From Lentzea tibetensis (GTDB lineage: Bacteria; Actinomycetota; Actinomycetes; Mycobacteriales; Pseudonocardiaceae), in contig NZ_VOBR01000003.1 of the NCBI RefSeq assembly GCF_007845675.1, positions 372,001 through 436,000 on the forward strand: 64,000 bases of DNA, read 5' to 3'. Numbering within the stretch: position 1 is the stretch's first letter; every line of letters begins with the position of its first letter. The notes under the pieces are model-generated. The model searched no databases and was not told where the DNA came from. It saw only the letters and a program-made list of their open reading frames with translations. Positions 25,389 through 45,660 of this stretch are shown here, piece after piece. The position numbers and the translations under genes are program-made.

Positions 25389-26825
25389 ATGGGGAAGGCA
25401 CGGGTCGTCGCGGCTGTGGCCGCGCTGGCGTTGCTCAGCGGGTGCACCTCGGTCGTCGAGGGCACCGCGAGAGGCGAGCGCCCGGACCCGACGAAGGTCG
25501 CCGGCCTGGAGATCACCAACGGCGCGTCCGGCCCCCGCGAGGGCGTGCCGGACGCGGACCTGCGCGTGGAGAACGCCGACGGCGGCGACATGGACCGCCT
25601 GGCGATCAACACGCTGGCCGACGTCCAGGAGTACTGGACCGCTGAGCTGCCCGCCCAGTTCGACGGCAAGACGTTCGAGCCGGTGAAGCGCCTGGTGTCG
25701 TACGACTCGACGGGCAAGGGCGTCGAGGTCTGCAAGACCGACACGACCGGCGTCGCCAACGCCTTCTACTGCTCGCTGGACGACAGCATCACGTGGGACC
25801 GCGGCGACCTGCTCCCGATGCTGAACGACTCGTTCGGCCCGCTCGCCGTGGTCACCGTGCTGGCCCACGAGATGGGCCACGCCGTGCAGTACAAACTCGG
25901 CCCGGCGTCCGGCATCACCCAGGCGACCCCGTCGATCGTGAAGGAACAGCAGGCCGACTGCTACGCGGGCACGTTCTTCCGCTGGATGGCTGAGGGCAAG
26001 GCGAAGCACTTCGAGATCTCCACCGGCCCAGGCCTGAACAAGGTCCTGACCACGATGTTCTTCATCCGCGACCAGGCGGGCACGTCGTTCGAGAAGCAGG
26101 GCGCCCACGGCAGCGCCTTCGACCGCGTCTCGGCATTCCAGTTCGGCTTCGCCCGCGGCGCCCGCCGCTGCGCCGACATCGACGAGGCCGAGATCGAAGC
26201 CCGGATCACCGAGCGCAAGTTCGAGCCCGCGGACACCGACAAGGGCCAGGGCCGAGGCAACGCGAAGGTCGACGACGACAAGTTCCTGCGCGCACTGGAG
26301 AACAGCCTGCGCAACGCCTACAAGACCTCCGGCGCCACGTTCCCCGCGATCAACCGGGATGGCGCGGGCTCGTGCTCCGACGCGGAGCCGACCACTCCCG
26401 CCACCTACTGCCCCGCCACCAACCAGGTCGGACTAGACCTGCCCGGACTCGTGCGGATCGGCACGCCCCCGAAGAAGGGCCAGAAGGGCGGCATCGGCGA
26501 CTTCGCCGCGTTCGCGGTGATCGCGTCGCGGTTCTCGCTGTCGATCCAGAAGGCCACCGGGTTCAAACTCGACGACGAGGCCGCCGGGCAACGCACCGCC
26601 TGCCTCACCGGCGCCTGGGCGGGCGAGGCCAACAAGCCGACCGCCGAGCTGCGCCTCTCGCCCGGCGACCTGGACGAGGCCGTGTCCGAACTGCTGGCCG
26701 ACGACAGCCTGATCGCCGCCGACGTCAACGGCGCCACCGTGCCTTCCGGGTTCGCACGGGTGGAGGCGTTCGGTGACGGCTTCTTCGGCGGCTCCTCAAC
26801 CTGCGTGCGCAAGTACAACCGCTAA
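25389..26825 (+). CDS. neutral zinc metallopeptidase lipoprotein (YpfJ-like), copy 1
   Basis: A 478-residue lipoprotein with lipobox LLSGC (Cys 19). The catalytic zinc motif HEMGH is at 160-164, with downstream EQQADCYAGTFFRW supplying the probable third ligand, as in the YpfJ/neutral zinc metallopeptidase family. The C-terminal half has paired Cys (GSCSDAEPTTPATYCP; RTACLTG) and a conserved end, LSPGDLDEAVSELL. It is anchored outside the membrane and presumably cleaves proteins at the cell surface. A paralogue with the same architecture faces it at 27701-29071, across an 875-bp repeat-rich spacer. Confidence 0.85.
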   Translation: MGKARVVAAVAALALLSGCTSVVEGTARGERPDPTKVAGLEITNGASGPREGVPDADLRVENADGGDMDRLAINTLADVQEYWTAELPAQFDGKTFEPVKRLVSYDSTGKGVEVCKTDTTGVANAFYCSLDDSITWDRGDLLPMLNDSFGPLAVVTVLAHEMGHAVQYKLGPASGITQATPSIVKEQQADCYAGTFFRWMAEGKAKHFEISTGPGLNKVLTTMFFIRDQAGTSFEKQGAHGSAFDRVSAFQFGFARGARRCADIDEAEIEARITERKFEPADTDKGQGRGNAKVDDDKFLRALENSLRNAYKTSGATFPAINRDGAGSCSDAEPTTPATYCPATNQVGLDLPGLVRIGTPPKKGQKGGIGDFAAFAVIASRFSLSIQKATGFKLDDEAAGQRTACLTGAWAGEANKPTAELRLSPGDLDEAVSELLADDSLIAADVNGATVPSGFARVEAFGDGFFGGSSTCVRKYNR

Positions 26826-26834
26826 CGCGCGCTA

Positions 26835-27560
26835 GTGCTTGACGTGCGGTGCGGGCGTGCTTTCGCAGGCGTCCTCGCACGCGAGAAACCCCCGAATCGA
26901 TGCTCTCAGCCGGCACTGACAACTCCGGGCCCCGCAGCCACGCCGACCGTGAATTCACCGAGAAAGCAGGGCTCGCTGCGCACGGCTGGGAGCGAGGCGG
27001 GCGCGGGTCGCGGCCATGCTCACGCAGGCGTCCCCCGCGTGTGAGAACCCCCCGATTCCATGGTCTCTGCCAGCACCGACAATCCCCGGCCCGCAGGCAC
27101 GCAAACCACTGAATCCGGCAGGTACCGAGGGAGCGCAGCCCAAACCGGCGGGTACTAAAGGAGCACCGCTCAAACCGGCGGGCACCAAGGGGGCGCGAGC
27201 CCAACTGGCGGGCACCAAGGGAGTATCGCCGAAACCGGCAGGTACCGAGGGGGCGCGGCCCGAACCAGCGGGTACTAAGGGAGCACCGCTCAAACCGGCG
27301 GGCACCAAGGGAGCGCGAGCCCAACCGGTGGACACCAAGAGTGCACGGCGAAACCGGCGCGAACCAAGCGAGCACCCCCTCAACCGGCAGATACCAAGAG
27401 CCGAGCGAAACCGGCAGATACCAAGGGAGCACCGCCAAAACCGGCAGATACCAAAAGAAAAGAGCGCCCGCCGCACTAGCAACCCCCGCACTGCCAACCG
27501 GGCGCGGCCCCCGAACACAAACCGGCAGCCAAATGATCAGAACAAACTTTCCCGGAGGGC
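26835..27560 (+). repeat. dispersed repeat element, copy A: two end modules plus twelve 30-bp tandem units
   Basis: Between the convergent metallopeptidase genes. Two similar end modules (about 26860-26945 and 27020-27105; shared core GAGAAACCCCCGA/GAGAACCCCCCGA and CCGACAATCC-like stretches) are followed by about twelve imperfect 30-bp units from 27113 to 27455, each with a core like AAACCGGCGGGCACCAAGGG. Four units form a 120-bp super-repeat that occurs twice in a row (27113-27232 and 27233-27352). A conserved tail follows (27456-27540, containing AAACCGGCAGCCAAATGATC). An inverted, shorter copy (B) is at 45190-45660. No unique spacers (not CRISPR) and no transposase. One frame stays open through it, but without a convincing start or RBS. 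Confidence 0.8.
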
Positions 27561-27562
27561 GG

Positions 27563-27690
27563 GGTGGGGAGAGGTTCGCGGATCAGGCGAAGCCTTGCCA
27601 TATTTTCAGGTCGGGGTCAAGACGTCTTTTTGTCTTGACCCCGCCCTGAAAATATGGCCACCTCTGGTGATCCGCGAACCTCTCCCCACC
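27563..27690. repeat. 128-bp nested inverted repeat (long hairpin)
   Basis: Outer arms 27563-27585 and 27668-27690 match perfectly over 23 bp. Inner arms 27597-27623 and 27632-27658 match over 27 bp with one mismatch (CAGGTCGGGG against CAGGGCGGGG), closing on an 8-base T-rich loop. It begins just after repeat copy A and ends 10 bases before the stop of the minus-strand metallopeptidase. The inner part contains A/T-rich stretches (CATATTTTCAGG) unusual for this DNA. It could terminate the two convergent genes; the size and composition also fit a MITE-like insertion. Confidence 0.75.
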
Positions 27691-27700
27691 CAGAGGAATC

Positions 27701-29071
27701 TCAGCCCACCCCACACTTCTTGGGCCCCTCGAACACACCTTCACGAAACACAGCAACCCGCTTGAACCCAGGCTCAAGCGCAGACCCACCTTTACTGTCC
27801 CGAGCCGCGTAGTCGTACTCGAGCAACACGTTGACGGCCTCGTCCATATCGCCGGGCGAAAGCCCGAACCCCTTCTCACGAGCAAGCACAGACCCGGTGT
27901 AAGCGCCGGCCAAGCACAACGCACTGCGGCTAGCGTCCTCACCCTCCAAGGGCTTCCCGAGAACAGCCAACTCAGCCATCCCGTACCGCGAGGCGAGCAA
28001 CACGCCAGTCGCGTAGTCACCCAGCTCAGCGTGCAAAGCGGGCAACTCCTCCTTGACGTCAACGGCGATCGACTTGGCAGAAGGGCAGTACGCAACCGGC
28101 CCTTGGTTACCGGAGCAGTCGGGCTCGGTCTGGCTGGCCTCGGCCTTGGGCGGAGTCCACGTCTTGCCGAGCTGCTGGGCGATGGACGCGTAGTACCCGT
28201 CCAGGTCGGGCGTGATCGACTCGAGCATCTTCGCGAACGGCAGGTTGCCGCCGGTGGCGCGGTCGTCGGCGTTGGTGAACGCCCGCTGCGTGAAGACGCG
28301 GTTCTGCACGGTCATCGCGGCGCAGAACTTGGTGCCCTGCTCGTACCCGTCCTGGAACGCCGCGACGCGGTCGAACGCGCTGCCGTGCGCCTGCTCGTCA
28401 GTGGGCGACGTGCCCACCGGGTCGCGGAACGTGATCAACGCGCCCAGCGCTGAGTCGAGCGTGTTGGAGCCGATGTCGAGGTGGTCGGACTTGCCGTCGT
28501 TGACCCACCGGATGAACGAGCCGGCGAAGCAGTCGGCCATGGCCTCGGTGAGGATCGTGGGGAACCGTTCCGGCTCGCGGCGTTCGGCCTCCGGGGTGAT
28601 GCCCATGCGGCGCTGCACGGCGTGGCCCATCTCGTGCGCCAGCACGATGACCACGGCGGCCTGCCCGAACTTGTCCTCCAGCACGGGCAGCAACGCGGTC
28701 CGGTCCCAGGCGATCGCGTCGGCGGCGGGGCAGTAGAAGGCGTTGCCTTCGACGTCCGAGGCCTTCTGGGTGCACGGCGGCGGCTTGGCGGTGTTGTCGG
28801 AGGTGTCGACGGAGTAGTAGCCGCCGGTGAGCTTCTGCCACGGCTTGTTGAACGTCGGCTGGGACGCGTCGGTCCAGAACTGCTCGATGTCCGTCAGCGC
28901 GGTCGCGGCCAGCTGGTCGATGCGGCCGCCGTCCGTGCCGCGGACCACGGCCGTGTCGATGCCCTCGTTGTTCACCACCTTCGCGGCGACCGGACGGCCT
29001 GGGATTGCGTTGGAGCACCCGGTGACCACGAGTGCCAAGACGACCAGGAACGCGATCCGAGAGTGCCGCAT
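27701..29071 (-). CDS. neutral zinc metallopeptidase lipoprotein (YpfJ-like), copy 2
   Basis: A 456-residue paralogue of the protein at 25389-26825. Lipobox VTGC (Cys 19), zinc motif HEMGH at 146-150, and the third-ligand region TEAMADCFAGSFIRW. The Cys pairs PDCSGNQGPVAYCP and SALCLAG and the C-terminal LSPGDMDEAVNVLLEYDY correspond one to one with copy 1. The ATG at 29071 is chosen because it directly precedes the lipoprotein signal; the longer frame upstream adds 20 residues without any signal character. The two genes converge, so they are an inverted duplication that has diverged considerably. Substrate unknown. Confidence 0.85.
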   Translation of the reverse strand: MRHSRIAFLVVLALVVTGCSNAIPGRPVAAKVVNNEGIDTAVVRGTDGGRIDQLAATALTDIEQFWTDASQPTFNKPWQKLTGGYYSVDTSDNTAKPPPCTQKASDVEGNAFYCPAADAIAWDRTALLPVLEDKFGQAAVVIVLAHEMGHAVQRRMGITPEAERREPERFPTILTEAMADCFAGSFIRWVNDGKSDHLDIGSNTLDSALGALITFRDPVGTSPTDEQAHGSAFDRVAAFQDGYEQGTKFCAAMTVQNRVFTQRAFTNADDRATGGNLPFAKMLESITPDLDGYYASIAQQLGKTWTPPKAEASQTEPDCSGNQGPVAYCPSAKSIAVDVKEELPALHAELGDYATGVLLASRYGMAELAVLGKPLEGEDASRSALCLAGAYTGSVLAREKGFGLSPGDMDEAVNVLLEYDYAARDSKGGSALEPGFKRVAVFREGVFEGPKKCGVG

Positions 29072-29142
29072 CACCCCATTGTGCCGGGTGCGCGGTGTGG
29101 TGGGGGGCATGTCAAGGCCAACGTGCCTCACCCCGCACCGGT

Positions 29143-30294
29143 TCAGGTGCGTTGGGCTGATAGTGGGACGTTCGGACTGCTCGCACCGATGCAGTCGTGC
29201 ACGCCGACCCCGTCAGCGACATAGGACTCGTCGCTCTCGACCTGCAGGTTGTAGACCCAGCCGTCGAATTTCGGCGAGGTGACGCCCTGCACCCGCCGCC
29301 ACACAGCGGTGTCGTCGACCTTGGGCAGGTTGGTCCCGTTGCCGTAGGGAAACGACAGGTCGTACCGGGTCTGTCGGGTCGCGGCGTGTCGGTTGAGGCT
29401 GGGCTCGGACTGACGCAGACCGACTGGCCGTCCGAGCGTGGTGGCGATGGCGAGCATGTCCAACGCGAGCTGGCGGCACACCGTTACGCCGACCACCAGC
29501 TGCCGGTCCTGCCGGTCAGAGCCGTCGCCAGCCAGCCAGCCGTCCAGCAACGCCTCGAGATACGGGGCCGGGCCGTACGTCACGTGCGCGGACAGCCTCT
29601 TGTCGCCGTGCTTGGCAGTACCGGGCACCAGGATTTCGAACAACCGCTTCCACGTCTTGCCGTACAGCACGACGATCATGGCCCCGTTCGGGCGCTGCTG
29701 AATCCGCGAAGTCGCTCCGAACGCGTCCTTGATCAGGGCACATGTTTCCGGGACCAGGGTGTCGCGTTCGTGGCTGCCGTAGGTCCAGGTGACCTTGTTG
29801 GGAGTGACGTTCCCTTCGGCCGCGTACAGGCCGAGCAAGCGACCGAGCGACGGAGTGCGGGCCAACAGCGTCGGCAGTGGCGCGATCTCGCTGATCACGC
29901 CGCCGACGTTGATCGTGCCGTCGATGGTCCCTCGCAGGTCCTTGACGTTGACCAAGCGCTCCACGTGGATCAGATCGTCTCCGGCGGCGTGGTAGCGGGT
30001 GATCGACACGTGGTCGCCGTTGCGGAGATCCTTCGCGGCGACGTAGCCGCGAGTCGTGCGCACCGGGTGGTTCGGAGTGCAGTGCAGTGGCATGTGCCCG
30101 CGAAAGGTCACCTCCACCAGACCGTCGTCCGCGCGCCGCACCATCGTGTGCAGTACCCGCCCGGTACGCCCTTCGGCGGTGACCACCTCGTCGAGCAGCC
30201 GGATCTGCTCGATGGGGCGCTGGCTGCCGTCGGCCAGGCGCACGTACGTCCCGGCCGGGACGCACACGCTCAACGGTTGGAAAGCCCTCTTCAT
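29143..30294 (-). CDS. free-standing intein: HINT domain with LAGLIDADG homing endonuclease
   Basis: A 383-residue protein that reads as an almost bare intein. The first ten residues (MKRAFQPLSV) form a minimal N-extein. Cys11 opens block A (CVPAGTYVRLADGSQRPIEQ), and block B is LHCTPNHPV with the conserved His. LAGLIDADG blocks LLGLYAAEGNV and LLDGWLAGDGS lie in the middle. Block F is GWVYNLQVESDESYVADG and block G is VGVHDC, with Asp where inteins usually have Asn. Only CIGASSPNVPLSAQRT follows as C-extein. The ATG lies seven bases after the glgB stop, so it is probably co-transcribed with the GlgE operon. A host protein is not recognisable; splicing would leave a peptide of 26 residues. 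Confidence 0.8.
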   Translation of the reverse strand: MKRAFQPLSVCVPAGTYVRLADGSQRPIEQIRLLDEVVTAEGRTGRVLHTMVRRADDGLVEVTFRGHMPLHCTPNHPVRTTRGYVAAKDLRNGDHVSITRYHAAGDDLIHVERLVNVKDLRGTIDGTINVGGVISEIAPLPTLLARTPSLGRLLGLYAAEGNVTPNKVTWTYGSHERDTLVPETCALIKDAFGATSRIQQRPNGAMIVVLYGKTWKRLFEILVPGTAKHGDKRLSAHVTYGPAPYLEALLDGWLAGDGSDRQDRQLVVGVTVCRQLALDMLAIATTLGRPVGLRQSEPSLNRHAATRQTRYDLSFPYGNGTNLPKVDDTAVWRRVQGVTSPKFDGWVYNLQVESDESYVADGVGVHDCIGASSPNVPLSAQRT

Positions 30295-30301
30295 GGCAAC
30301 G

Positions 30302-32449
<2,148 letters not shown>

Positions 32450-32452
32450 GAC

Positions 32453-33765
32453 TCACTCTCCTCCGCTGGTGATCCGGGCGATCGACGACAGGGGGATCGT
32501 CAACCACTCCGGCCGGTTCGCGTGCTCGTAAGCGACCTCGTAGACCGCCTTGTCCAACTCGAACGCCTGCAACAGGAAGGCGTGCTCGCGCGGGTCCGAC
32601 AAGACCTCCGCGTACCCGTCGCAGAACGCCGCGCGGTTGCGCCGCGCCCACTCCAGCGCTCGGTAGGCGAGCTGGTCGTCGTCCTGACCGACCAGCAGCT
32701 GGTGCGCCGCGTAGTCGAAGGATCGCAGCATTCCGGCCACGTCGCGCAGTGGCGAGCGCATCGCCGTCCGCTCCGCGATCGGTGCGGCGGGCTCACCTTC
32801 GAAGTCGATCAGCAGCCAGCCCTGCACGGTCCGCAGCACCTGACCGAGGTGCAGGTCGCCGTGGATGTGCTGGATCGCGATGTCGCCGAGGTGCTCGCGC
32901 GCCTGCTCGAACACCTCCCGCAGCGCCGCCGAGTGCTCGCCCAGCTCCGGGACGTCGTGCAGCACGGCGTCCAAACGGGACTGCATCGACGCGATCGCCG
33001 ACGCGATCTCGGTGGCGCCCGCGGTCTGCGTGCCGAGCGCCCGCGCCAGGTCCGCGTGCACGGACGCCACCGCGTGGCCCAGCCGGTGCGCCTCGGCCGC
33101 GAAGTCGCCGCCGACCTCGTCCGCGTGCAGGTCCGCCTCGGCCATCAGGTCGCGCACGCTGGTCGTCGCCATCGCCCAGCCGTCGACCGCGTCGGGCAGG
33201 AACTCCTGCAGCATGCCGAGCGTCACCGGCGTGCCGTCGAGGTCCGTCGTGATCGACCCGAGCGGCTGCGCGATGTGCTGGCAGCCGACGCCGCGCAGCG
33301 CCCGGTGCAGCACCAGGTCCGGGTTCTCGCCGAGCGTCAGCTTGCGGAACAGCTTCAGGATGTACTGCTGTCCGTAGATCAGCGACGTGTTGGACTGCTC
33401 GACCCCGACCGGCCGTCCGCGCAGCCCGGTGCGCAGCTCGGTGTCCGGCTCGTGCGCGAACACCAGGCCGTCCACCCGCTCGCCGCGGGCGATCAGGTCG
33501 AGGAGCACGCCGTTCAGCTCGGGGTCGGCCGTCGACTCGTAGGAGTCGGCCAGTTCGGAGATCAGCAGCTGGTACGGGCTCGACCGGCCGTCCTGGTCGA
33601 CCGCGACGATCACGTGCACCAGGTCGTCGTCCAGCAGTGTCGTCCGAAGTGGACGGACGCCGCTGACGGGCCGGTCCTTGCCGCCGAACCAGCGCAGGTT
33701 CGGCAGCATGTCCGGCAGCGCGGACACCAGCTTGTCGACGAGTTCGTGCGGGTCGATCACGCGGT

Positions 33766-33769
<4 letters not shown>
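32453..33769 (-). CDS. mak: maltokinase
   Basis: A 438-residue maltokinase (Pep2 type) that uses ATP to make maltose 1-phosphate, the substrate of GlgE. Recognisable features: the N-terminal cap domain with [11 protein letters not shown], the family segment [22 protein letters not shown], and the catalytic lobe with [12 protein letters not shown] (HGDxHxxQ) and LLIDFEGEP. The GTG start at 33769 overlaps the treS stop as GTGA, so translation is coupled to the enzyme that supplies maltose; in some mycobacteria the two are even fused. The reading frame upstream of this start is the shadow of treS. The length is that of the mycobacterial enzyme. Confidence 0.94.
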
Positions 33770-35586
<1,817 letters not shown>

Positions 35587-35623
35587 GTACTGCTCCCACG
35601 TCATCGGGGGTTGCGGGGGACCC

Positions 35624-37600
<1,977 letters not shown>

Positions 37601-37764
37601 GCGCAGCGCCCCTCTCGCCGTGTTTGTGCCAATCCTGCCTTGCTCGATCAAGCCGCCGATCACCGGGCAGGTCACGGCGGGAGTCCCACCCAGTCCGTAC
37701 CCCGTACTTGTCGATCGCACACCCTTGTCCCGAGCGTGTCCAGAGGAGGCCGCCAGTACTGGTA

Positions 37765-37779
37765 GATAACGCTGTTATC
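37765..37779. promoter_or_regulatory. dyad GATAAC-GCT-GTTATC between glgE and the kinase gene
   Basis: A perfect 6-bp inverted repeat with a 3-base centre in the 217-bp divergent intergenic region, 38 bases before the kinase GTG. It is AT-rich against its surroundings and a plausible operator for either gene. No matching copy was noticed elsewhere in the window. Confidence 0.4.
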
Positions 37780-37817
37780 GGCACGTCGGCGGTGGTCGGT
37801 CGGTACTCTCGGCCGCC

Positions 37818-39146
37818 GTGACCAAGCTTGGTGACCGATACCTCCTGCTCGACGAGCTGGGCAGCGGTGCGATGGGCGTGGTGTGGCGGGCGCGCGACGA
37901 GCTGCTGCACCGCGAGGTCGCGATCAAGCAGCTGCTGCTGCCCGATCTGGCGCCCCGGCAGGTGGACGAGGCCTGTCAACGGGCGATGCGGGAGGGCCGG
38001 ATCGCGGCCCGGCTGCAGCACCCGAACGCGATCGGGGTCTTCGACGTCGTGATCGAGGACGGCAAGCCGTGCCTGGTCATGGAGTACCTGCCGTCCCGCA
38101 GCCTGTCCGCTGTGCTCGCCGAACGAGGTCCGCTGCCGCCTGCCGAGGCCGCGCGGATCGGCGTGCACGTCGCTGCGGCGCTCGCCGCCGCGCACGAGGC
38201 GGGGATCGTGCACCGGGATGTCAAACCCGGCAACGTCCTCATCGGATCCAACGGCAGCGTCAAGATCACGGACTTCGGGATCTCCCGAGCGGCCGGTGAC
38301 GTGGCGGTCACCCGGACCGGGATGCTGGCGGGCACGCTCGCCTACCTCGCGCCCGAGCTGGCCCGCGGCGCGGACCCCGACGCCGCGTCGGACGTGTTCT
38401 CGCTCGGGGCGACCCTCTACGCGCTGACCGAGGGACAGCCGCCGTTCGGGCGCACCGACAACGACTTCGGCCTGCTCTACAAGATCTCGATGGGACAGAT
38501 CACGCCACCCGCGCGGTCCGGCGCGCTCGGGCCCCTGCTCTCCCGGCTGCTGGCGATCGACCCCGCGGCCAGGCCGACCGCCGCGCAGGTCGCCGAGCTG
38601 CTGGCGGGCATCACCGGTCCGGCCACCGCCGTCCAGCCCGTGCCGAAGCGGCGCACGGGCGTGGTCGTCGCCGCCGCTGCGGTGGTGCTCGTCGCGACGG
38701 TCGTGGCCGCGTCGTTCCTGGTCGACCGCGGCTGGACCGCGGGGTCGGTCGGCAGTTCGACGCCGCAGACGTCCCAGTCGACATCCCAGTCGGCGTCTGC
38801 GCAGCACACGGCGTTCACCACGCGGCAGGTGGACGCCTTCGTTCAGCAGCACTTCGCCAAGCTGCCGAAGGACACCGCGGGCGCGCGGCAGGACTGGGCG
38901 CCGGAGTTCCGGCCCGCCGAGTGGAACGACGATCAGTTCTGGAGCGCGTACGAGGTGGTGGCGATCTACGGCGCACCGGTGATCAGCAGCAGCGCGCAGG
39001 ACGAGAGGTTCGCCGTCAAGGTCGACCTGACGCTGCGCAGGCGGGACGCCGCCGAGCACGACGTGTCGATCAAGTCCCACCAGCTCGACGTGATGGCCAG
39101 GGACGGCAGGCTGCTCATCACCCACGCGATCGAGGCCGGCAACTGA
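37818..39146 (+). CDS. membrane-anchored Ser/Thr protein kinase (PknB family)
   Basis: A 442-residue Hanks-type kinase. Glycine loop LGSGAMGVVW (14-23), ATP Lys in VAIK (about 37), catalytic HRDVKPGN (132-139), DFG at 152-154, activation-loop segment TRTGMLAGTLAYLAPE. A transmembrane helix at about 276-296 (VVVAAAAVVLVATVVAASFLV) places the remaining 145 residues outside the cell: a Ser/Gln-rich stalk, then a small domain (TTRQVDAFVQQHF...YEVVAIYGAPVISSS...). That sensor domain is not PASTA and I do not recognise it. The gene is divergent from glgE and 140 bases upstream of glgP, so control of alpha-glucan turnover is an attractive but unproven idea. GTG start. Confidence 0.9.
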   Translation: MTKLGDRYLLLDELGSGAMGVVWRARDELLHREVAIKQLLLPDLAPRQVDEACQRAMREGRIAARLQHPNAIGVFDVVIEDGKPCLVMEYLPSRSLSAVLAERGPLPPAEAARIGVHVAAALAAAHEAGIVHRDVKPGNVLIGSNGSVKITDFGISRAAGDVAVTRTGMLAGTLAYLAPELARGADPDAASDVFSLGATLYALTEGQPPFGRTDNDFGLLYKISMGQITPPARSGALGPLLSRLLAIDPAARPTAAQVAELLAGITGPATAVQPVPKRRTGVVVAAAAVVLVATVVAASFLVDRGWTAGSVGSSTPQTSQSTSQSASAQHTAFTTRQVDAFVQQHFAKLPKDTAGARQDWAPEFRPAEWNDDQFWSAYEVVAIYGAPVISSSAQDERFAVKVDLTLRRRDAAEHDVSIKSHQLDVMARDGRLLITHAIEAGN

Positions 39147-39286
39147 CCCCGCCTGTGGGCTGACTCTCCTGTCGCGCTGTTTGCGCAGGTCGCGGGCTCG
39201 TTCGTCTTGATCGGTTCTGCAAGTCGTTGCAGGCTTGGCCGGGAATCTTGTCGAGGCATCGGGGGCGGGAGATAAGGTCGCTCGCC

Positions 39287-41872
39287 ATGCGAGCACTTCG
39301 CCGGTTCACCGTCCGAGCCAGCCTGCCGGAGCCTCTGTCCGCGCTGGCCACGCTCGCCACCAACCTGCGCTGGACGTGGCATCCGCCGACGCAGGATCTG
39401 TTCGCCTCGATCGACGCCTCCGTCTGGTCCGAGGTGGGTGGCGACCCGCTGCGCCTGCTGTCCGTTGTCGACGCGGGGCGGCTCGAGACACTGGCACGCG
39501 ACGAGCAGTTCCTCCTCCGCGTCCGCGCACTGGCCGACGACCTCGACCGGTACGTCACCGGTCCGCGGTGGTACCAGAAGCGCCAGGACGAGATCACGCA
39601 GCGGAGAGAGCACGGCGTCGGTGACGACAAGCCGTTGCCCACGTCCGTCGCGTACTTCTCGATGGAGTTCGGTGTCACCGAGGCGCTGCCCAACTACTCG
39701 GGAGGTCTCGGCATCCTCGCCGGTGACCACCTGAAGGCGGCGTCGGACCTCGGCGTGCCGCTGATCGCGGTCGGGCTGCTCTACCGGTCCGGGTACTTCC
39801 GCCAGTCGCTGTCGCTGGACGGCTGGCAGATCGAGCACTACCCGGTGCTCGACCCGCGCGGCCTGCCGCTGGAGCTGCTGACCGAGCCGTCCGGGCTGCC
39901 GCTGCTCGTGCACGTGTCCATGCCTGGCAACAGGGTGCTGCGCGCCAAGGTGTGGAAGGCCCAGGTCGGCCGGATCCCGCTGCTGCTGCTCGACTCCGAT
40001 GTGGAGCAGAACGACGACGACCTGCGCGGCGTCACCGACCGCCTCTACGGCGGCGACCAGGGGCACCGCATCCGCCAGGAGATCCTCGCCGGCATCGGCG
40101 GCGTGCGCGCCGTGCGCACCTTCTGCGAGCTCACCGGCCACCCGCAGCCCGAGGTGTTCCACACCAACGAGGGCCACGCCGGATTCCTCGGCCTGGAGCG
40201 GATCCGCGAGTACATCACCAACGAGGGCCTCGACTTCGACCAGGCGCTGGCCGCGACCCGCGCCGGTGCCGTCTTCACCACGCACACGCCCGTGCCCGCC
40301 GGCATCGACCGCTTCCCGGTCGACCTCGTCCAGCACTACTTCGGCGACGAGCAGCTCGTGCCCGGCGTGAACACGCAGCGGATCCTCGCGCTCGGCGCCG
40401 AGGACAACCCCGGCATGTTCAACATGGCGCACATGGGACTGCGCCTCGCGCAGCGCGCGAACGGCGTGTCCAAGCTGCACGGTGAGGTCTCGCGGGACAT
40501 GTTCCGCGGCCTGTGGCCGGGCTTCGACGTCACCGAGGTGCCGATCGGCTCGGTCACCAACGGCGTGCACGGCCCGACCTGGGCGGCGACCGAGATCAGC
40601 AAGCTGCTCGGCGGCTCGGACGCGGACACCGCGTCGTCCAGCACTGGCTTCGGCTCGTTCGAGCCGGTCACCGACGGGCTGCTGTGGGAGCTGCGCTGCG
40701 AGCTGCGCGCGCGGCTCGTCGGCGAGGTCCGGCGGCGGCTGCGGGAGTCGTGGCTGCAGCGCGGCGCGTCGGCGCTCGAGCTCGGCTGGACCGACTCCGT
40801 GTTCGACCCGAGCGTGCTCACCGTCGGCTTCGCCCGGCGCGTGCCCACCTACAAGCGGCTCACGCTGATGCTGCGCGACCCGGAGCGGCTGCGGCACCTG
40901 CTGCTGCACCCGGAACGTCCCGTGCAGCTCGTCGTCGCGGGCAAGTCGCACCCGGCCGACGACGGCGGCAAGGCGCTGATCCAGCAGATCGTGCGCTACG
41001 CCGACGAGGCGGGCGTGCGGCACCGGATCGTGTTCCTGCCGGACTACGACATGTCCATGGCCCGGTACCTGTACTGGGGCTGCGACGTGTGGCTGAACAA
41101 CCCGATGCGCCCGCTCGAGGCGTGCGGCACGTCCGGCATGAAGGCCGCGCTGAACGGCGGGCTCAACCTGTCCATTCGCGACGGCTGGTGGGACGAGCTC
41201 TACGACGGCAGCAACGGCTGGGCCATCCCGACCGCCGACGGCGTCGCGGACCCGATCCGCCGTGACGACCTGGAGGCCAACGCGCTCTACGAGCTGCTCG
41301 GCTCGCAGGTCGCGCCGCTGTTCTACGACCGAGGCGAGGACGGCGTGCCGACCCGCTGGATGTCGATGGTGCGGCACACGCTCGCGTCGCTCGGCCCGGT
41401 CGTGCAGGCGTCGCGCATGGTCCGCGAGTACGTCGAGACCTACTACGCGCCTGCCGCGGCGTCCGCGCACAACGTGCTCGGCGAGGGCTTCCGCGGCGCG
41501 AAGGAGCTGTCCGCCTACCGGCACCGGCTGCGCGCGTCGTGGACGCGGGTGCGGGTGCTCGACAGCGACCTGTCCATCGGCGGTCCGGCCGTGCCCGTGC
41601 TGGGTGCGCCGGTCCACGTGCGGGCGCGGGTCGAGCTGGCCGGGCTGGAGCCGTCCGAAGTGGACGTCCAGGTCGTGCTCGGCAAGGTCGGCGACAGCGA
41701 CGAGCTGTACGACCTCGTGAGCGCGCCGATGCACTACGCGGGCAACGGCAACTACGAGGTCGACGTGCCGCTGCCGCACGCCGGGACCCTCGGCTACACC
41801 GTCCGCGTGCTGCCCCGGCACAACCTGCTGGCCTCCCCGGCCGAACTCGGTCGCGTCGTCCTGGCCTCGTGA
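39287..41872 (+). CDS. glgP: alpha-glucan (glycogen/maltodextrin) phosphorylase, GT35
   Basis: An 861-residue PLP-dependent phosphorylase that releases glucose 1-phosphate from alpha-1,4-glucan. It has the actinobacterial-type N-terminus (RFTVRASLPEPLSALATLATNLRWTW) and the catalytic-domain motifs YFSMEFGVTEALPNYSGGLGILAGDHLKAASDL, NEGHAGFL, and EACGTSGMKAALNGGLNLSIRDGWWDE with the Lys that binds PLP. The ATG at 39287 is preferred; a longer TTG-initiated frame adds 20 residues without family similarity. It opposes the biosynthetic glgE operon on the other strand, giving synthesis and breakdown modules side by side. An 11-bp hairpin follows the stop. Confidence 0.94.
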   Translation: MRALRRFTVRASLPEPLSALATLATNLRWTWHPPTQDLFASIDASVWSEVGGDPLRLLSVVDAGRLETLARDEQFLLRVRALADDLDRYVTGPRWYQKRQDEITQRREHGVGDDKPLPTSVAYFSMEFGVTEALPNYSGGLGILAGDHLKAASDLGVPLIAVGLLYRSGYFRQSLSLDGWQIEHYPVLDPRGLPLELLTEPSGLPLLVHVSMPGNRVLRAKVWKAQVGRIPLLLLDSDVEQNDDDLRGVTDRLYGGDQGHRIRQEILAGIGGVRAVRTFCELTGHPQPEVFHTNEGHAGFLGLERIREYITNEGLDFDQALAATRAGAVFTTHTPVPAGIDRFPVDLVQHYFGDEQLVPGVNTQRILALGAEDNPGMFNMAHMGLRLAQRANGVSKLHGEVSRDMFRGLWPGFDVTEVPIGSVTNGVHGPTWAATEISKLLGGSDADTASSSTGFGSFEPVTDGLLWELRCELRARLVGEVRRRLRESWLQRGASALELGWTDSVFDPSVLTVGFARRVPTYKRLTLMLRDPERLRHLLLHPERPVQLVVAGKSHPADDGGKALIQQIVRYADEAGVRHRIVFLPDYDMSMARYLYWGCDVWLNNPMRPLEACGTSGMKAALNGGLNLSIRDGWWDELYDGSNGWAIPTADGVADPIRRDDLEANALYELLGSQVAPLFYDRGEDGVPTRWMSMVRHTLASLGPVVQASRMVREYVETYYAPAAASAHNVLGEGFRGAKELSAYRHRLRASWTRVRVLDSDLSIGGPAVPVLGAPVHVRARVELAGLEPSEVDVQVVLGKVGDSDELYDLVSAPMHYAGNGNYEVDVPLPHAGTLGYTVRVLPRHNLLASPAELGRVVLAS

Positions 41873-41879
41873 GATCAAC

Positions 41880-41934
41880 TCAGGGCATCCGGTTCGCGGG
41901 TTTGAAGCGGACTGGATGCCCTGATGCGTCTATC
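41880..41934 (+). terminator. hairpin after glgP
   Basis: Arms TCAGGGCATCC (41880-41890) and GGATGCCCTGA (41924-41934), 11 bp and perfect, with a 33-base loop. It begins 8 bases after the glgP stop. Confidence 0.65.
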
Positions 41935-42160
41935 TTGACGCCCCTCTGGTGACTGCTGGTCACCTGCTTCGCGCCTGCGTGCTCATTTGTGCCCTTCCCT
42001 CATTGGAATGAGGGCGTTTCGTTCGGGTGATTTCCTCATCTCCGCTGGTAGAGCCTGGTATGCGGGCATACGCTCTGTCGCATGGAATGACCCGGTGCCC
42101 GCAAATACGGACATTCTCGGGTTGGTTTACTGGAAATGCGCATGAGGAAAGCAGGTAGCC
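41935..42160. other. intergenic region with two palindromes upstream of the secreted small protein
   Basis: No gene is visible in these 226 bases. They hold CCCTCATT-GG-AATGAGGG (41997-42014) and GTATGC-GG-GCATAC (42058-42071), both perfect short palindromes. They are candidate regulator sites for the gene starting at 42161. The local base composition is more AT-rich than the flanking genes, as expected of a promoter region. Confidence 0.4.
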
Positions 42161-42688
42161 GTGAAGAAAACAGTTACCGTTATCTCGCTCGTCGCAGTTG
42201 TGTTTACCGCCTCGATCGTCCCCGCAGCCTCCGCCTCCGACCACCGCGCTGATCCACCCGCCGCCTGCGCTGGGCTCGTGACGCAGCTCGTCGACACCCT
42301 CAAGAAAGTGATCGGATCGCTCACGGCTCTGCCTCCGAATCCGGGCAACGCCGCCGCCCCGCTCGGCGACATCCTCGGCGTGCTGTCCGCGTTGCAGGGC
42401 GCGAAGTGCCTGCCGACGCCACCGGTGAGCGCGCCCGTCGCGCTGCCCGTCGACCTGCAGTGGCAGGGCCCCGAGGAGTGCCTGCCGGTCGTCATGAGCC
42501 TGTTCTCGAACGTGTTCGGCCTGCTCGGCAAGGTGCTGCCGGGCGCGGGTCTGCCGGACCCGACGAAGTTGTTGTCGCTGGTCACGGACCTGCTCAAGAC
42601 GTTGACCGACGCGCTGCAGAAGTGCGGCCTGCCCGCACCTCCGGGTGGCCTGCCGACGCTGCCCGGACTCCCAGGACTGCCCACCTGA
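42161..42688 (+). CDS. small secreted protein of unknown function, Cys-containing
   Basis: A 175-residue secreted protein with a clear signal peptide (MKKTVTVISLVAVVFTASIVPAASA, cleaved near residue 25). The mature part has four Cys (ACAGL, AKCLP, EECLP, QKCGL), probably two disulfides, alternating with Leu/Val-rich helices (LVTQLVDTLKKVIGSLTAL; LLSLVTDLLKTLTDALQKC), and ends in a Pro/Gly/Leu-rich tail (GGLPTLPGLPGLP). I do not recognise the family; the shape is reminiscent of small helical secreted proteins of actinomycetes. The start is GTG; the use of Lys-Lys after Met fits a signal peptide. It is monocistronic with a strong terminator. Confidence 0.75.
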   Translation: MKKTVTVISLVAVVFTASIVPAASASDHRADPPAACAGLVTQLVDTLKKVIGSLTALPPNPGNAAAPLGDILGVLSALQGAKCLPTPPVSAPVALPVDLQWQGPEECLPVVMSLFSNVFGLLGKVLPGAGLPDPTKLLSLVTDLLKTLTDALQKCGLPAPPGGLPTLPGLPGLPT

Positions 42689-42700
42689 CCGCGGGGTAGG

Positions 42701-42738
42701 GAAAGGGGCTGTCACCCTCACCGGTGACAGCCCCTTTC
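42701..42738 (+). terminator. 16-bp perfect hairpin terminator
   Basis: Arms GAAAGGGGCTGTCACC (42701-42716) and GGTGACAGCCCCTTTC (42723-42738) with a 6-base loop, followed by TCTCTTGT. A strong intrinsic terminator for the secreted-protein gene. The remaining bases 42739-42903, up to the convergent gene, show nothing I can name. Confidence 0.85.
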
Positions 42739-42903
42739 TCTTGTGACGCACCGCGTTATTCGGCTTGCTGTGGAATAGAGTCCGTGAGCTGCCCGGTCAC
42801 TCTTCAGAACCGGGTCAAGCGGTATTCCGGGAATGCGCACAATGGTGCGACAGATTCCTGTTCCGGCGCGAACCGGGGCTAATGTCCGTCCGGGGTGGCG
42901 GGA

Positions 42904-44019
42904 CTAACCGATCGACAGTCGGGCGCGGGTCGCCGCGACCCTCGGGAACCAGCCCGCGAGCTCGTGGGCGACGTCCATGAGCTCGCGGGCCTTCTTGTTG
43001 TCACCGGCCGCCATGTACGCCTTCGCGACCGTCGTCAGGCCGTCCGCCCGGTCGACCGCTCGCTCGCTCGACTCGGCGGCCCGGTTGCCCAGGTCGATCG
43101 CGCTGCTCGTGTCGCCTTCCAGCAGGGCGATGATCGCCAGCGTTCCGGTCGCGCGGTACGAGGGGTAGCCGACCTGGATGGCGCCTTCGAGGGTGCGGCG
43201 GGCCGCCGGGACCCCGATCTCGCCCGGCAGCTGGCCCGCGTCGACGGCCAGCGCGGTGAGCCCGGCCGTCGTCGCCATCACGTACGCCATCTCCCGCGGC
43301 GACAGGTCCTGCCTGCTGACGAGCCCGGTGACCAGGCCGAGCGCCTGGCCGTACTGGTTGCGGCCGCAGAGCGTCGAGATCTGGAGCCCGATGACCGTCA
43401 GCAGCTCGGGGTGCTCGCCGGTGAGCTCGGCCGAGATCCGCTCGGCGGTGTCGAGATCGCCGACGTTGAACGCGTCCTTCGCCGCCGTGATGCGCGGCGT
43501 CGACTCCATCTCGGCCAGCTCGCGTCCGGCGAGGCGGGGGAGTCCGAGCACGAACCAGCCGATGCTCGTGCCGCCCGGCTTGCGCACCGGGATGAGCTCG
43601 TAGACGAGCGCGGCCGCGGCGGCGAGCGCGAGTCCCTTGCCCAGGTCCGCGCCGACGGTCAGCCAGGTGGCGGCGGCCGTCGCGGTGGCGGTGACCGCGG
43701 AGGCGGCGCCCGCCGCGACCATCCTGCGGCGCACCGGTGTCCGCTCGCCCGCGATGCCGACCGTGAAGAGCACGGGGATGTTGCGCAGCACCACGCGGCG
43801 CTTGGCCGTCGTCCACTCGCGGAGCTCGCCGCCGATGCCGATGATCACGTGGGTGACCCGCAGTCCGAAGAGGACCGCGCCCAGCATCAGCCCGAGCTGG
43901 AACGCCGCCTGCACCAGCAGCAGCCCCAGCAGTGTTCCCGCCAGGCTCGCGAAGCCAGGCGCCCACAGTTCCGCGATTGCGACGACCAGCGCCGCAGACC
44001 CCCACCGCACATACCTCAC
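42904..44019 (-). CDS. membrane protein with C-terminal helical repeats, function unknown
   Basis: A 371-residue protein. The N-terminal 150 residues hold about four hydrophobic segments (SLAGTLLGLLLVQAAFQLGLMLGAVLFGL; an Ala/Thr-rich stretch near 115; LGKGLALAAAAALVYELIPV) and a loop with RRVVLRNIPVLFTVGIAGER. This resembles the membrane part of M50-like or site-2-protease-like proteins, but no HExxH is present. The C-terminal 200 residues form TPR-like helical pairs (AAKDAFNVGDLDTAERISAELTGEHPELL; AAGDNKKARELMDVAHELAG). I cannot assign a function. It starts 33 bases downstream of the rhodanese gene on the same strand. Confidence 0.7.
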   Translation of the reverse strand: MRYVRWGSAALVVAIAELWAPGFASLAGTLLGLLLVQAAFQLGLMLGAVLFGLRVTHVIIGIGGELREWTTAKRRVVLRNIPVLFTVGIAGERTPVRRRMVAAGAASAVTATATAAATWLTVGADLGKGLALAAAAALVYELIPVRKPGGTSIGWFVLGLPRLAGRELAEMESTPRITAAKDAFNVGDLDTAERISAELTGEHPELLTVIGLQISTLCGRNQYGQALGLVTGLVSRQDLSPREMAYVMATTAGLTALAVDAGQLPGEIGVPAARRTLEGAIQVGYPSYRATGTLAIIALLEGDTSSAIDLGNRAAESSERAVDRADGLTTVAKAYMAAGDNKKARELMDVAHELAGWFPRVAATRARLSIG

Positions 44020-44052
44020 GGGAGGCAGACGCTACCGGCCGCCGCGGGTTCC

Positions 44053-44445
44053 TCAGGAGACCGCCTGCGATCCACCTTCGCGAATCGGCAGCCCGGCCGC
44101 GCGCCACGCCCGGTAGCCGCCGATCAGGTCGGTCGCCTTGGGCAGCCCGATGCGCTTGAGGTCGCGCGCCGCGAGGCTCGACGAGTACCCCTCGTTGCAC
44201 ACGACGATCACCGGCGTGTCCTTCGTGAAGCCGGGCAACCGCCAGTCGCCGCTCGGGTCGAGCCGCCACTCCAGCACGATCCGCTCCACGACCACGGACC
44301 CCTCGATCTCACCCTCGGCGAGCCGGTTGTGGTGCGGCCGGATGTCGACGATCAACCCGCCCAGCCTCCGCAGACCGTCCGCTTCTTCAGGACTCACGCG
44401 CGTGATCTCGGCGCGCGCGTCTTCGAGGAACGCGTCGACGCTCAC
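44053..44445 (-). CDS. rhodanese-like sulfurtransferase
   Basis: A 130-residue single-domain rhodanese. The active-site loop CNEGYSS (within VVCNEGYSSSLAARDL) supplies the persulfide Cys, and GGLIVDIRP is the conserved strand-loop near the N-terminus; DLIGGYRAWRAAGLPI closes the domain. The GTG start overlaps the cysteine dioxygenase stop as GTGA, so the two are coupled and probably act in the same pathway: disposal or transfer of sulfur from cysteine oxidation products. Similar CDO-rhodanese pairs are common in actinobacteria. Confidence 0.9.
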   Translation of the reverse strand: MSVDAFLEDARAEITRVSPEEADGLRRLGGLIVDIRPHHNRLAEGEIEGSVVVERIVLEWRLDPSGDWRLPGFTKDTPVIVVCNEGYSSSLAARDLKRIGLPKATDLIGGYRAWRAAGLPIREGGSQAVS

Positions 44446-45020
44446 GGACCCTCCAGGTCGGCTCGGAGCTTCAGCTCGGCCAGCGGCAGTCGTTGCGCCG
44501 GCAGCGGTGGTATCTCGGCGGGGATGTCCGCGAGACTCGGGTACTCCCTCGTCGGCACCAGCGGCGGCGAGTACGCGTGCACCGTCGCCGCCGGCTTCTC
44601 CCCGGCGTTGCGCACCTGGTGCGCCCGCCCCGACCCGAACCCGACGGCCTCGCCGGTGTGCCGGACCGTGGTCCTGATCGGGCCGGAGGGGTACCGGTAG
44701 TCCTCGGTCAGCTCGCCGGTCAGCACGGTGAAGCTGCCCGCGGCGCCACCGTGGTCGTGCGGCTCGGTGCCCTGGCCGGGCAACCAGCTCAACAACCACA
44801 GCTCGACGCCCTCGGTGAGGCCGAGCCTGGTCCACCAGCGCTGCTCAGGCACGTACCGCAGCACCTGGAGCAGAGGCGTGGTCAGTTCACTCGCGACCGT
44901 CGACGTCAGCTCGCGCAGCTCGCGCGGCGTCCACAGGTCGCGGTCCGGGTGGATGAGGTCGCGCAGGAACTGGACGTCCAGCGCGGGGTGCAGGTCTGCT
45001 CCAGAAATGGTCGTGGTCAC
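44442..45020 (-). CDS. cysteine dioxygenase type I
   Basis: A 192-residue cupin that oxidises L-cysteine to cysteine sulfinate with a mononuclear Fe(II). The metal site is visible: EPHDHGG gives two His ligands and GRAHQVRN the third. GSFTVLTGELTEDY is the linking cupin strand. The GTG start at 45020 has AGGAG seven bases before it. A 25-codon leader ORF rich in terminal Cys codons ends 53 bases upstream, which suggests control by cysteine supply. It is followed by the coupled rhodanese gene. Confidence 0.9.
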   Translation of the reverse strand: MTTTISGADLHPALDVQFLRDLIHPDRDLWTPRELRELTSTVASELTTPLLQVLRYVPEQRWWTRLGLTEGVELWLLSWLPGQGTEPHDHGGAAGSFTVLTGELTEDYRYPSGPIRTTVRHTGEAVGFGSGRAHQVRNAGEKPAATVHAYSPPLVPTREYPSLADIPAEIPPLPAQRLPLAELKLRADLEGP

Positions 45021-45060
45021 GCGTGCGCTCCTGATGGCTTGCTTCCGGAATGCCGACAGC

Positions 45061-45083
45061 GCGGCGCTCGGATCTAGCGCCGC
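45061..45083 (-). promoter_or_regulatory. hairpin over the leader-peptide stop codon
   Basis: Arms GCGGCGCT (45061-45068) and AGCGCCGC (45076-45083) form an 8-bp stem with a 7-base loop. On the minus strand the TAG stop of the Cys leader ORF lies in it, so a ribosome stalled on or clearing the Cys codons would change whether it folds: a candidate attenuation switch for the dioxygenase operon. Confidence 0.45.
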
Positions 45084-45151
45084 GGGCAGCTACACGCACA
45101 CGAGGCGACCAGCACGAGGTCGATCGTGCGGTCGGACCACAGGAAAGCCAC
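45074..45151 (-). CDS. Cys-rich leader peptide of the cysteine dioxygenase operon
   Basis: A 25-codon ORF from GTG 45151 to TAG 45074. The middle reads DRTIDLVLVAS and the end CACSCPRR, i.e. three Cys codons within five just before the stop. The pattern RxxDLxxVxSxxC is that of short leader peptides found upstream of sulfur-metabolism genes in actinobacteria, where ribosome progress on Cys codons controls the downstream genes. No Shine-Dalgarno precedes the GTG; CAACAT lies 6 bases upstream as a possible -10, so translation may be leaderless. The stop overlaps a small hairpin, and the dioxygenase starts 53 bases later. The peptide itself need not have a function. Confidence 0.65.
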   Translation of the reverse strand: MAFLWSDRTIDLVLVASCACSCPRR

Positions 45152-45189
45152 GAGGCGATGTTGGCACGGGTACCTCGTGTTCGGCTAGT

Positions 45190-45660
45190 GCTCCCAGGCA
45201 ATGGACACGAACGTTGCGATGTCCGGGGGAGTTCTGCAGGCGGGGCTTTGGTGGTGGGCCTCCCCGCCCCCGGCCGTTCGGATGCTTGGGATCATTCGGC
45301 TGCCGGTTTGTGCTCGGAGGCCGCGCCCGGTTGGCAGTGCGGGGGTCGCTAGTGCGGCGGGCGCTCTTTTCTTTTGGTACCTGCCGGTTTCGCTGGGGCT
45401 CTCTTGGTATCTGCCGGTTTCGCCGGGCTCTTTTGGCGCCTGCCGGTTGGGCCGGTGCGCCTCTGGTATCTGCCGGTTTGGTCGGTGCTCTCTTGGTTCT
45501 GCCGGATCGTGGTGGGTCGCCGGGTGTGCTGGCGTCGCTTCGCTCGCTCGTTCTCGGCTTACGTGCCTGCAGGGCCGGGGATTGTCGGTGCTGGCTGAGA
45601 GCATCGACTCGGGGGTTCTCGCTGCCAGGGGACGCCTGCGTGAGCGTGGCCTGGCAGCGA
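45190..45660 (-). repeat. dispersed repeat element, copy B (inverted, shorter)
   Basis: On the minus strand it repeats the parts of copy A (26835-27560) in the same order: end module (about 45565-45650), about five 30-bp units (45374-45512, core CTGCCGGTTT on the plus strand), and the conserved tail (about 45285-45373, containing GATCATTCGGCTGCCGGTTT). The tail differs from copy A at only a handful of positions in about 90 bases, while unit number differs (5 against 12). The rest of 45152-45818, between the leader peptide and glgX, holds no gene that I can support. Confidence 0.75.

Follow-up and report, generated by a model that had tools for sequence, protein, structure and literature searches.

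In the available portion of one account, repetitive extragenic palindromic (REP) sequences form a class of palindromic, extragenic repeats that lie between convergent or unidirectional genes, some of them species-specific, and CGTC REPs apparently have no dedicated transposase (PMC3733652). REP doublets forming hairpins (REPINs) are described, in the accessible part of a second account, as elements whose inverted arms form a hairpin in single-stranded DNA (ssDNA) and which spread within a genome with REP-associated tyrosine transposases (RAYTs) (PMC3116915). Here we describe a family of repeats from Lentzea tibetensis, two copies of which (A and B) lie in a 64,000-nt stretch of contig NZ_VOBR01000003.1 (the window, to which coordinates without a contig or locus label refer). 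Each element, read in its own orientation, is built from a head (H), an array of units (U), a tail (T), a linker and a palindrome (P), the last being present only in copy A of the pair. We consider it probable that these modules make up a species-specific H-U-T-P mosaic family amplified in each lineage via hairpin DNA, with a promoter-like head and a terminator-like tail. The genome of L. tibetensis (G000) was compared with 24 other Lentzea genomes, the closest relative being G020 (86% identity in the metallopeptidase beside copy A, against 76–79% in the others).

The Lentzea family resembles bacterial interspersed mosaic elements (BIMEs) and REPs, as far as the consulted portions of the sources describe them, in being non-coding, intergenic, dispersed, palindromic, mosaic and placed behind coding regions. 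It differs in that P is a four-way junction of ~130 bases and not a set of 20–40-base REP units in alternating orientation, in the addition of tandem 29–30-base units and a promoter-like head, and in that no RAYT was found in G000 or G020. The family works like BIMEs but lacks such REP units and is without a detected RAYT in these two genomes, and its nearest kind is the REP/BIME class. Inverted arms, an ssDNA hairpin and dissemination within the genome are shared with REPINs as partially documented above, whereas the stems of P are much longer, and the RAYT-type domain Y1_Tnp (PF01797) was detected in 0/2 genomes (G000 and G020; a control found it in 5/14 named genomes), so a RAYT-driven REPIN is rejected. 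Like miniature inverted-repeat transposable elements and insertion sequence derivatives, the Lentzea elements are short, non-autonomous and dispersed, but no target-site duplication or transposon ends were recognised in them by eye. Streptomyces telomeres carry GNA triloop minihairpins, such as C-GAA-G and C-GCA-G, next to long palindromes; P has a similar layout, although it is internal and dispersed. The window has no Rfam match at the gathering score, and a literature search, judged by titles or abstract starts, returned no description of the Lentzea family.

Dispersal and mosaic composition

A and B belong to a non-coding interspersed family with about 63 or more members, mostly near gene 3′ ends. 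The tail core (≤3 mismatches) occurs at 63 sites in G000, whereas the reversed pattern, used as a control, occurs at none. A 101-base tail query gave at least 41 strong matches with the best 40 of 85 candidates scored, and BLAST recovered at least 39 further tails at 90–98% identity. The set of fetched loci also comprises 63 sites, including one with four mismatches and omitting one doubtful pattern site; one BLAST copy with an indel (on C53) is counted in neither pattern set, and some loci carry more than one tail, so the copies are not fully independent. A preliminary description of the window had taken A and B as two inverted copies of a mobile or recombinogenic non-coding element. The pair is real but the family is not confined to it, and the palindrome of copy A had been overlooked; the mobile or recombinogenic character is supported by the 63 dispersed tail sites, by element-free sites in the closest relative and by reassorting module states.

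Direct reading of the two copies gives the same module order in both (head, ~30-base units, tail), as first described. Copy A, on the plus strand, has two head modules (H1, 26857..26930; H2, 27018..27092), an array of about 12 units of 29–30 bases with core AAACCGGCRGRYACCAAGRG (27111..27454), a tail (27453..27538) and a type A linker, AGAACAAACTTTCCCGGAGGGC (27539..27561), and extends to about 27691, ending in the long palindrome. Copy B, on the minus strand, has one head (45571..45645), an array of about five units (45370..45505), a tail (45290..45388) and a type B linker followed by remnants of the outermost P arms (45240..45289; by eye), the palindrome itself being absent. Tandem Repeats Finder assigned a 30-base period to both arrays, with 11.5 copies in A (27115-27454) and 4.6 in B (45370-45505), in agreement with the unit numbers of about 12 and 5 reported earlier, and the tails, already noted as nearly alike, are 95% identical across 99 bases.

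The same modules vary across the 63 copies. The head is ~75 bases long, occurs once or twice and lies ≤1.5 kb upstream of 40/63 tails (a row count in which that for L072 is doubtful), with a variable stretch separating it from the array. Each copy has 0–12 units of 29–30 bases. Linkers are of type A in 24 copies, type B in 27, both in one and neither in 11. P is complete in 32 copies, 31 of them distinct, shortened in five (L074, L084, L098, L104 and L116) and has an inverted loop in L110. The family is thus mosaic, with linker type, unit number and the presence or length of P in reassorted module states. When positions within P (outer stem, minihairpin loops and inner stem) are taken in pairs, each of the four possible combinations occurs in 9/10 pairs, the exception being the pair formed by two inner-stem stretches.

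Most of the compared sites are element-free in the closest relative. Fifteen G000 sites were compared with G020: 12/16 searched with joined gene-end fragments kept both flanks syntenic, and L081, L113 and L073 came from a separate comparison. At 12/15 sites G020 has no element. Six of these have a short gap without the repeat in G020 (copy A, L068, L080, L096, L107 and L122), and at the copy A site the convergent stop codons overlap there as CTAG. The gap holds a coding-like open reading frame (ORF) at L082 (copy B), L074 and L100 (183, 243 and 364 aa, respectively) and spans 1.4–4.4 kb at L098, L101 and L118. Searches of these 12 G020 gaps with the P and H models described below, and BLAST with copies A and B and the G020 family, returned nothing. 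At the other three sites (L113, L073 and L112) G020 has its own P (L163, L167 and L182) without an H match. Both species share a terminator-like hairpin at L068, GTCGTGAGTG..CACTCACGAC, which adjoins the element in G000 (by eye) and speaks for insertion rather than deletion there. By eye, conservation fades out 14–20 bases past P and where H starts, and the left end has no shared flank.

Palindrome P in Lentzea tibetensis and its genus

P is dispersed genus-wide, and its arms, though different from copy to copy and from species to species, stay complementary with almost no G-T intermediates. In copy A (27562..27691, no strand assigned) it comprises an outer stem, an AGGC-GAA-GCCT minihairpin, a long inner hairpin and a CACC-TCT-GGTG minihairpin, which fold as a four-way junction at −105.9 kcal/mol, compared with −52.5 kcal/mol for shuffles (z −11.8). 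Of the ~130 bases of the module, 124–126 aligned bases form this one long junction. Pairing holds for 99.1% of 1674 stem cells in the 31 distinct copies. In the alignment of 32 copies, double-sided changes affect 23/54 pairs; in the 31 distinct copies, double-change cells number 187, compared with 58.5 in shuffles and 17–55 with the partners slid; the P copies share kinship, so that the shuffle figures are not probabilities. The two minihairpin helices are invariant within G000. Among all 1728 cells of the 32 rows, 1707 are Watson-Crick pairs, five are G-T and 16 are unpaired. If selection acted on RNA only, G-U intermediates would be expected, and their near absence suggests that the arms are rewritten together in DNA, either by correction templated on the hairpin or by spread in hairpin form; the arms of P thus probably change together at the DNA level.

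Long palindromes of this type were also found in other species. A scan of relatives' loci gave 13 long palindromes, 12 of which have a CACGCTTTTCG-type loop in either orientation, and ten of the relatives' palindromes align with eight G000 copies of P. A covariance model of P (18 sequences, 134 positions; E ≤ 0.001, with rough E-values and at most the best 134 candidates per genome) matched 21/25 Lentzea genomes. Matches number at least 131 in G000, 80 in G020, 76 in G023, 67 in G016, 56 in G008, 53 in G001, 52 in G022, 48 in G004 and 45 in G012, with fewer in G018 (27), G017 (19), G024 (14), G005 (11), G007 (11) and G011 (10); six genomes have 1–3 matches and four have none. All 11 test palindromes matched on both strands (22 matches), so palindromes amount to about half of the P matches; among the matches listed, 55 different P places are found in G000 and 27 in G020. 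In G022 and G016, 20 fetched P copies stand in another mosaic, in which P is preceded by GCGATGCCGCAGGCGAGCCGTCC-like units and followed by CAACCGGCAGCCGCCC-like sequence. By eye, their outer stem is nearly fixed, their inner stems vary without losing complementarity, and at least two versions of the inner stem are common to both genomes (for example, L398 and L407). Lentzea species seem to multiply their own versions of the element family.

The tail has a narrower range. At comparable identity it was not found in the 24 other Lentzea genomes, full-length matches being confined to G000; G020 has two matches at 76–77%, and G004, G019 and G021 have one marginal match each. The exact tail core is absent from GTDB contigs, a set from which near-identical records may be missing, and the exact head pattern matched seven GTDB records, all Lentzea. 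The preliminary description held that tails and units confined to this locus and absent from relatives would indicate a local duplication; the high-identity tail is confined to its own species among the 25 genomes, yet it is dispersed throughout that genome, and the head and palindrome modules occur in most of the genus.

Three further observations concern palindromes in G000. The inner part of P matches without the query's outer arms at C66:341182, C16:230135, C18:185759, C21:170577, C48:19313 and other places, where it is a module with other outer arms. Upstream of copies at L007, L010 and L025 lies a second dispersed palindrome family, GGGCCTTGACTTGGGGCCCCTCGCGG...CCCCAAGTCAAGGCCC (by eye), in part with short tandem units such as CCGTCGGACTCGCCTTCCG. 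Several contigs of the 105-contig assembly start or end inside P (C53, C33, C32, C49, C23, C73, C17 and C38; for example, C33:1-125, C49:1-122 and C53:1-125), and P palindromes therefore probably break short-read assembly.

Head and tail modules

The consensus of the RecA-NDp (P1) promoter is tTGTCRgtg - 8 nt - TannnT in the available text of one source (PMC5656591), and the consulted portions of two others state that PafBC activates RecA-NDp promoters and that RuvA and RuvC belong to the regulon (PMC6789036, PMC8223512). The opposite strand of H resembles this consensus, reading TTGTCRGTG-N8-nAnnAT followed by a hairpin and GGGGACGCCTGCGTGAGC. In copy A, the opposite strand carries TTGTCAGTG-N8-GAGCAT in H1 (26922-26900; H-model match L081:2448-2527) and TTGTCGGTG-N8-GACCAT in H2 (27082-27060; match G000:C33:399006-399086). 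The head of copy B carries TTGTCGGTG-N8-GAGCAT on the plus strand (45582-45604; match G000:C33:417578-417657). Exact TTGTCRGTG is kept in 43/50 G000 heads found with a loose pattern. H differs from RecA-NDp promoters in its conserved following hairpin (degraded in G000), in its dispersal over at least 145 places in G000 and in the replacement of the first T of the −10 hexamer in Lentzea. The full TTGTCGGTG-N8-TANNNT is present in other genera (L298, L299 and L303).

The H model was built from 31 sequences; the 68 motif matches gathered beforehand, of which three were dropped as spurious, came from a pattern that requires the motif and give no independent proof of it. At E ≤ 0.01 the model matches all 25 Lentzea genomes, with at least 145 matches in G000 (among the best 150 candidates), 73 in G020 and 4–33 elsewhere, counting one strand per head (12 matches for 12 heads in a check). 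In a sample of the family, matches at E ≤ 0.001 occur in 24/150 genomes and 10/46 genera, its own genus included. Surroundings were called for 67 heads, 64 of them outside G000 and G020. Ten have a RuvA-size ORF, mostly of 194 aa, 25–73 nt downstream, and RuvA was confirmed by Pfam at L189 and L200, in other Lentzea. Twelve of the 67 heads are 0–22 nt away from where an opposite gene ends; H resembles a terminator hairpin there and may thus act in both directions. A reading of H as a coding tail was rejected, as one-base differences shift the frame in several copies (by eye). Judged from its motif and setting, H would be a dispersed copy of a promoter-like module of the RecA-NDp/PafBC type that points out of the element.

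T has a 7-base GC stem on the reverse strand of the element, which in copy A (minus strand) reads GCGCCCG(N28)CGGGCGC and is followed by TCTTTTCTTTT; T is accordingly predicted to be terminator-like in the opposite direction. At L114 (3028-3300) T has been amplified locally, three tandem tails being spaced by 113 bases, and no P was found.

Proposed amplification through hairpin DNA and its alternatives

The best reading is of BIME-like mosaic elements that have recently been amplified and homogenised without a RAYT. Every lineage would multiply a version of its own by duplication, with hairpin DNA either as an intermediate or as the form in which copies are corrected, so that one arm serves as template for the other. 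Slippage would then delete inner parts, as in copy B, and alter unit number. Once inserted, T could stop transcription arriving from the P side and H could start damage-responsive transcription on the H side, both putative activities. A more specific proposal, which we regard as improbable, is that P is a new non-autonomous element that spreads as an ssDNA four-way-junction hairpin through a RAYT-independent enzyme, with one arm copied into both and with H, under the PafBC damage response, raising its spread or transcription. The genus offers a natural series, with none to dozens of copies of the hairpin module per species and sites that hold an element in one species but not in another, which makes testable how bacterial palindromic repeats without a RAYT multiply and how the complementarity of their arms is kept up. 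If H is active, amplification of an interspersed repeat would have multiplied a DNA-damage promoter along with it.

Several observations weigh against amplification of such an element. Where G020 has no element, the difference could reflect deletion in G020 and not insertion in G000. Inspection of the junctions by eye revealed neither a target-site duplication nor transposon ends, and the left element boundary is, by eye, not sharp. No transposase or mobilising enzyme was identified in a parent-element search limited to Y1_Tnp. Recurrent change could contribute to the module-state combinations and mimic reassortment, and selection at the RNA level could be the alternative keeper of arm complementarity. 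As a promoter, H departs from TannnT in that its hexamer is GAGCAT in 32/43 of the G000 heads with exact TTGTCRGTG and in none of them starts with T; flanking genes beside H are directed towards the element in 32 copies and away in 24 (seven uncalled), so H drives no gene consistently. T is not supported as an exceptional RNA hairpin, its energy being not below that of shuffles, and scans for terminator-like sites gave three against 1.8 (s.d. 1.5) and three against 0.8 (s.d. 1.0) in shuffles.

The main rival, unlikely in our judgement, is that P, T and H are functional 3′-end RNA elements (bidirectional terminators or mRNA stabilisers) held by selection on RNA structure, so that their number reflects need and not mobility. 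Gene context, called for the 63 copies with a simple GC-frame gene caller, speaks for it: on the P side a gene points into the element in 43/54 copies with a called gene (9/63 have none). Of 18 complete P modules towards which a gene is directed, ten start 18–42 bases downstream of its stop codon, and no hairpin was found in the intervening sequence; the other eight have a longer flank. The strong covariation in P, the heads lying 0–22 nt from opposite gene ends and the resemblance of H in other genera to terminator hairpins immediately downstream of stop codons (L296, L300 and L302; by eye) also fit this explanation. The five G-T cells of 1728, set against 187 double-change cells, argue against it, as does the range from zero to at least 131 P matches among species of one genus. 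Some native terminator-like hairpins also persist beside P, with stems of ≥8 pairs in 4/18 flanks compared with 2.2% of shuffles, as illustrated by L068, where the hairpin is also present in the G020 counterpart (by eye), and T is not unusually stable. A terminator role does not exclude mobility, as transcription-terminating insertions downstream of genes would be tolerated.

Besides amplification through hairpin DNA, the arrays admit other explanations. It is quite improbable that the elements are chromosome-organising binding sites for gyrase or nucleoid proteins, with the 29–30-base units as tandem protein sites: the unit spacing is near three helical turns, and REP/BIME elements elsewhere are said, in the available part of one source, to bind proteins (PMC2817692), but unit number varies from 0 to 12. 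A repeat-peptide gene family with PAGTKGA-type decapeptides, also raised in the preliminary description, is almost certainly wrong: copy A does have a frame that stays open across its array (a 249-aa ORF at 27016-27765), whereas among 243 unit-to-unit distances 102 are of 30 bases and 71 of 29 bases, only 123 being multiples of three, and the reading shifts between units in both copies (by eye). This spacing breaks the frame, so the arrays are not peptide-coding. To a local duplication of simple intergenic sequence within the window, suggested by two inverted copies 18 kb apart, we give next to no credence, as it is contradicted by the 63 tail-core sites on many contigs and by the facts that A and B differ in linker and that only A has P. 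A CRISPR array was likewise rejected, as the 29–30-base period throughout leaves no room for spacers; the genes flanking A and B encode peptidases, an amylase-family protein and a dioxygenase and include no cas gene, cas genes elsewhere not having been searched.

The convergent or tail-to-tail setting attributed earlier to both copies holds for A alone. Copy A sits in an 875-base gap separating two convergent genes that both encode PF04228 zinc metallopeptidases (25389-26825, plus strand; 27701-29131, minus strand), whereas the neighbours of copy B, encoding a CBM_48/alpha-amylase protein and cysteine dioxygenase, are both on the minus strand. In the more distant relatives displayed, another gene follows the first metallopeptidase gene. 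Beyond the second metallopeptidase gene, a minus-strand ORF (29146-30417), which as called overlaps the 3′ end of the glgB ORF, is similar to intein/Hint domains: PF14890 (Intein_splicing) scored 35.5 bits against a cut-off of 35.8, and PF13403, PF14623 and PF05203 were weaker, all below cut-off. It may represent an intein or Hint remnant next to a glycogen gene.

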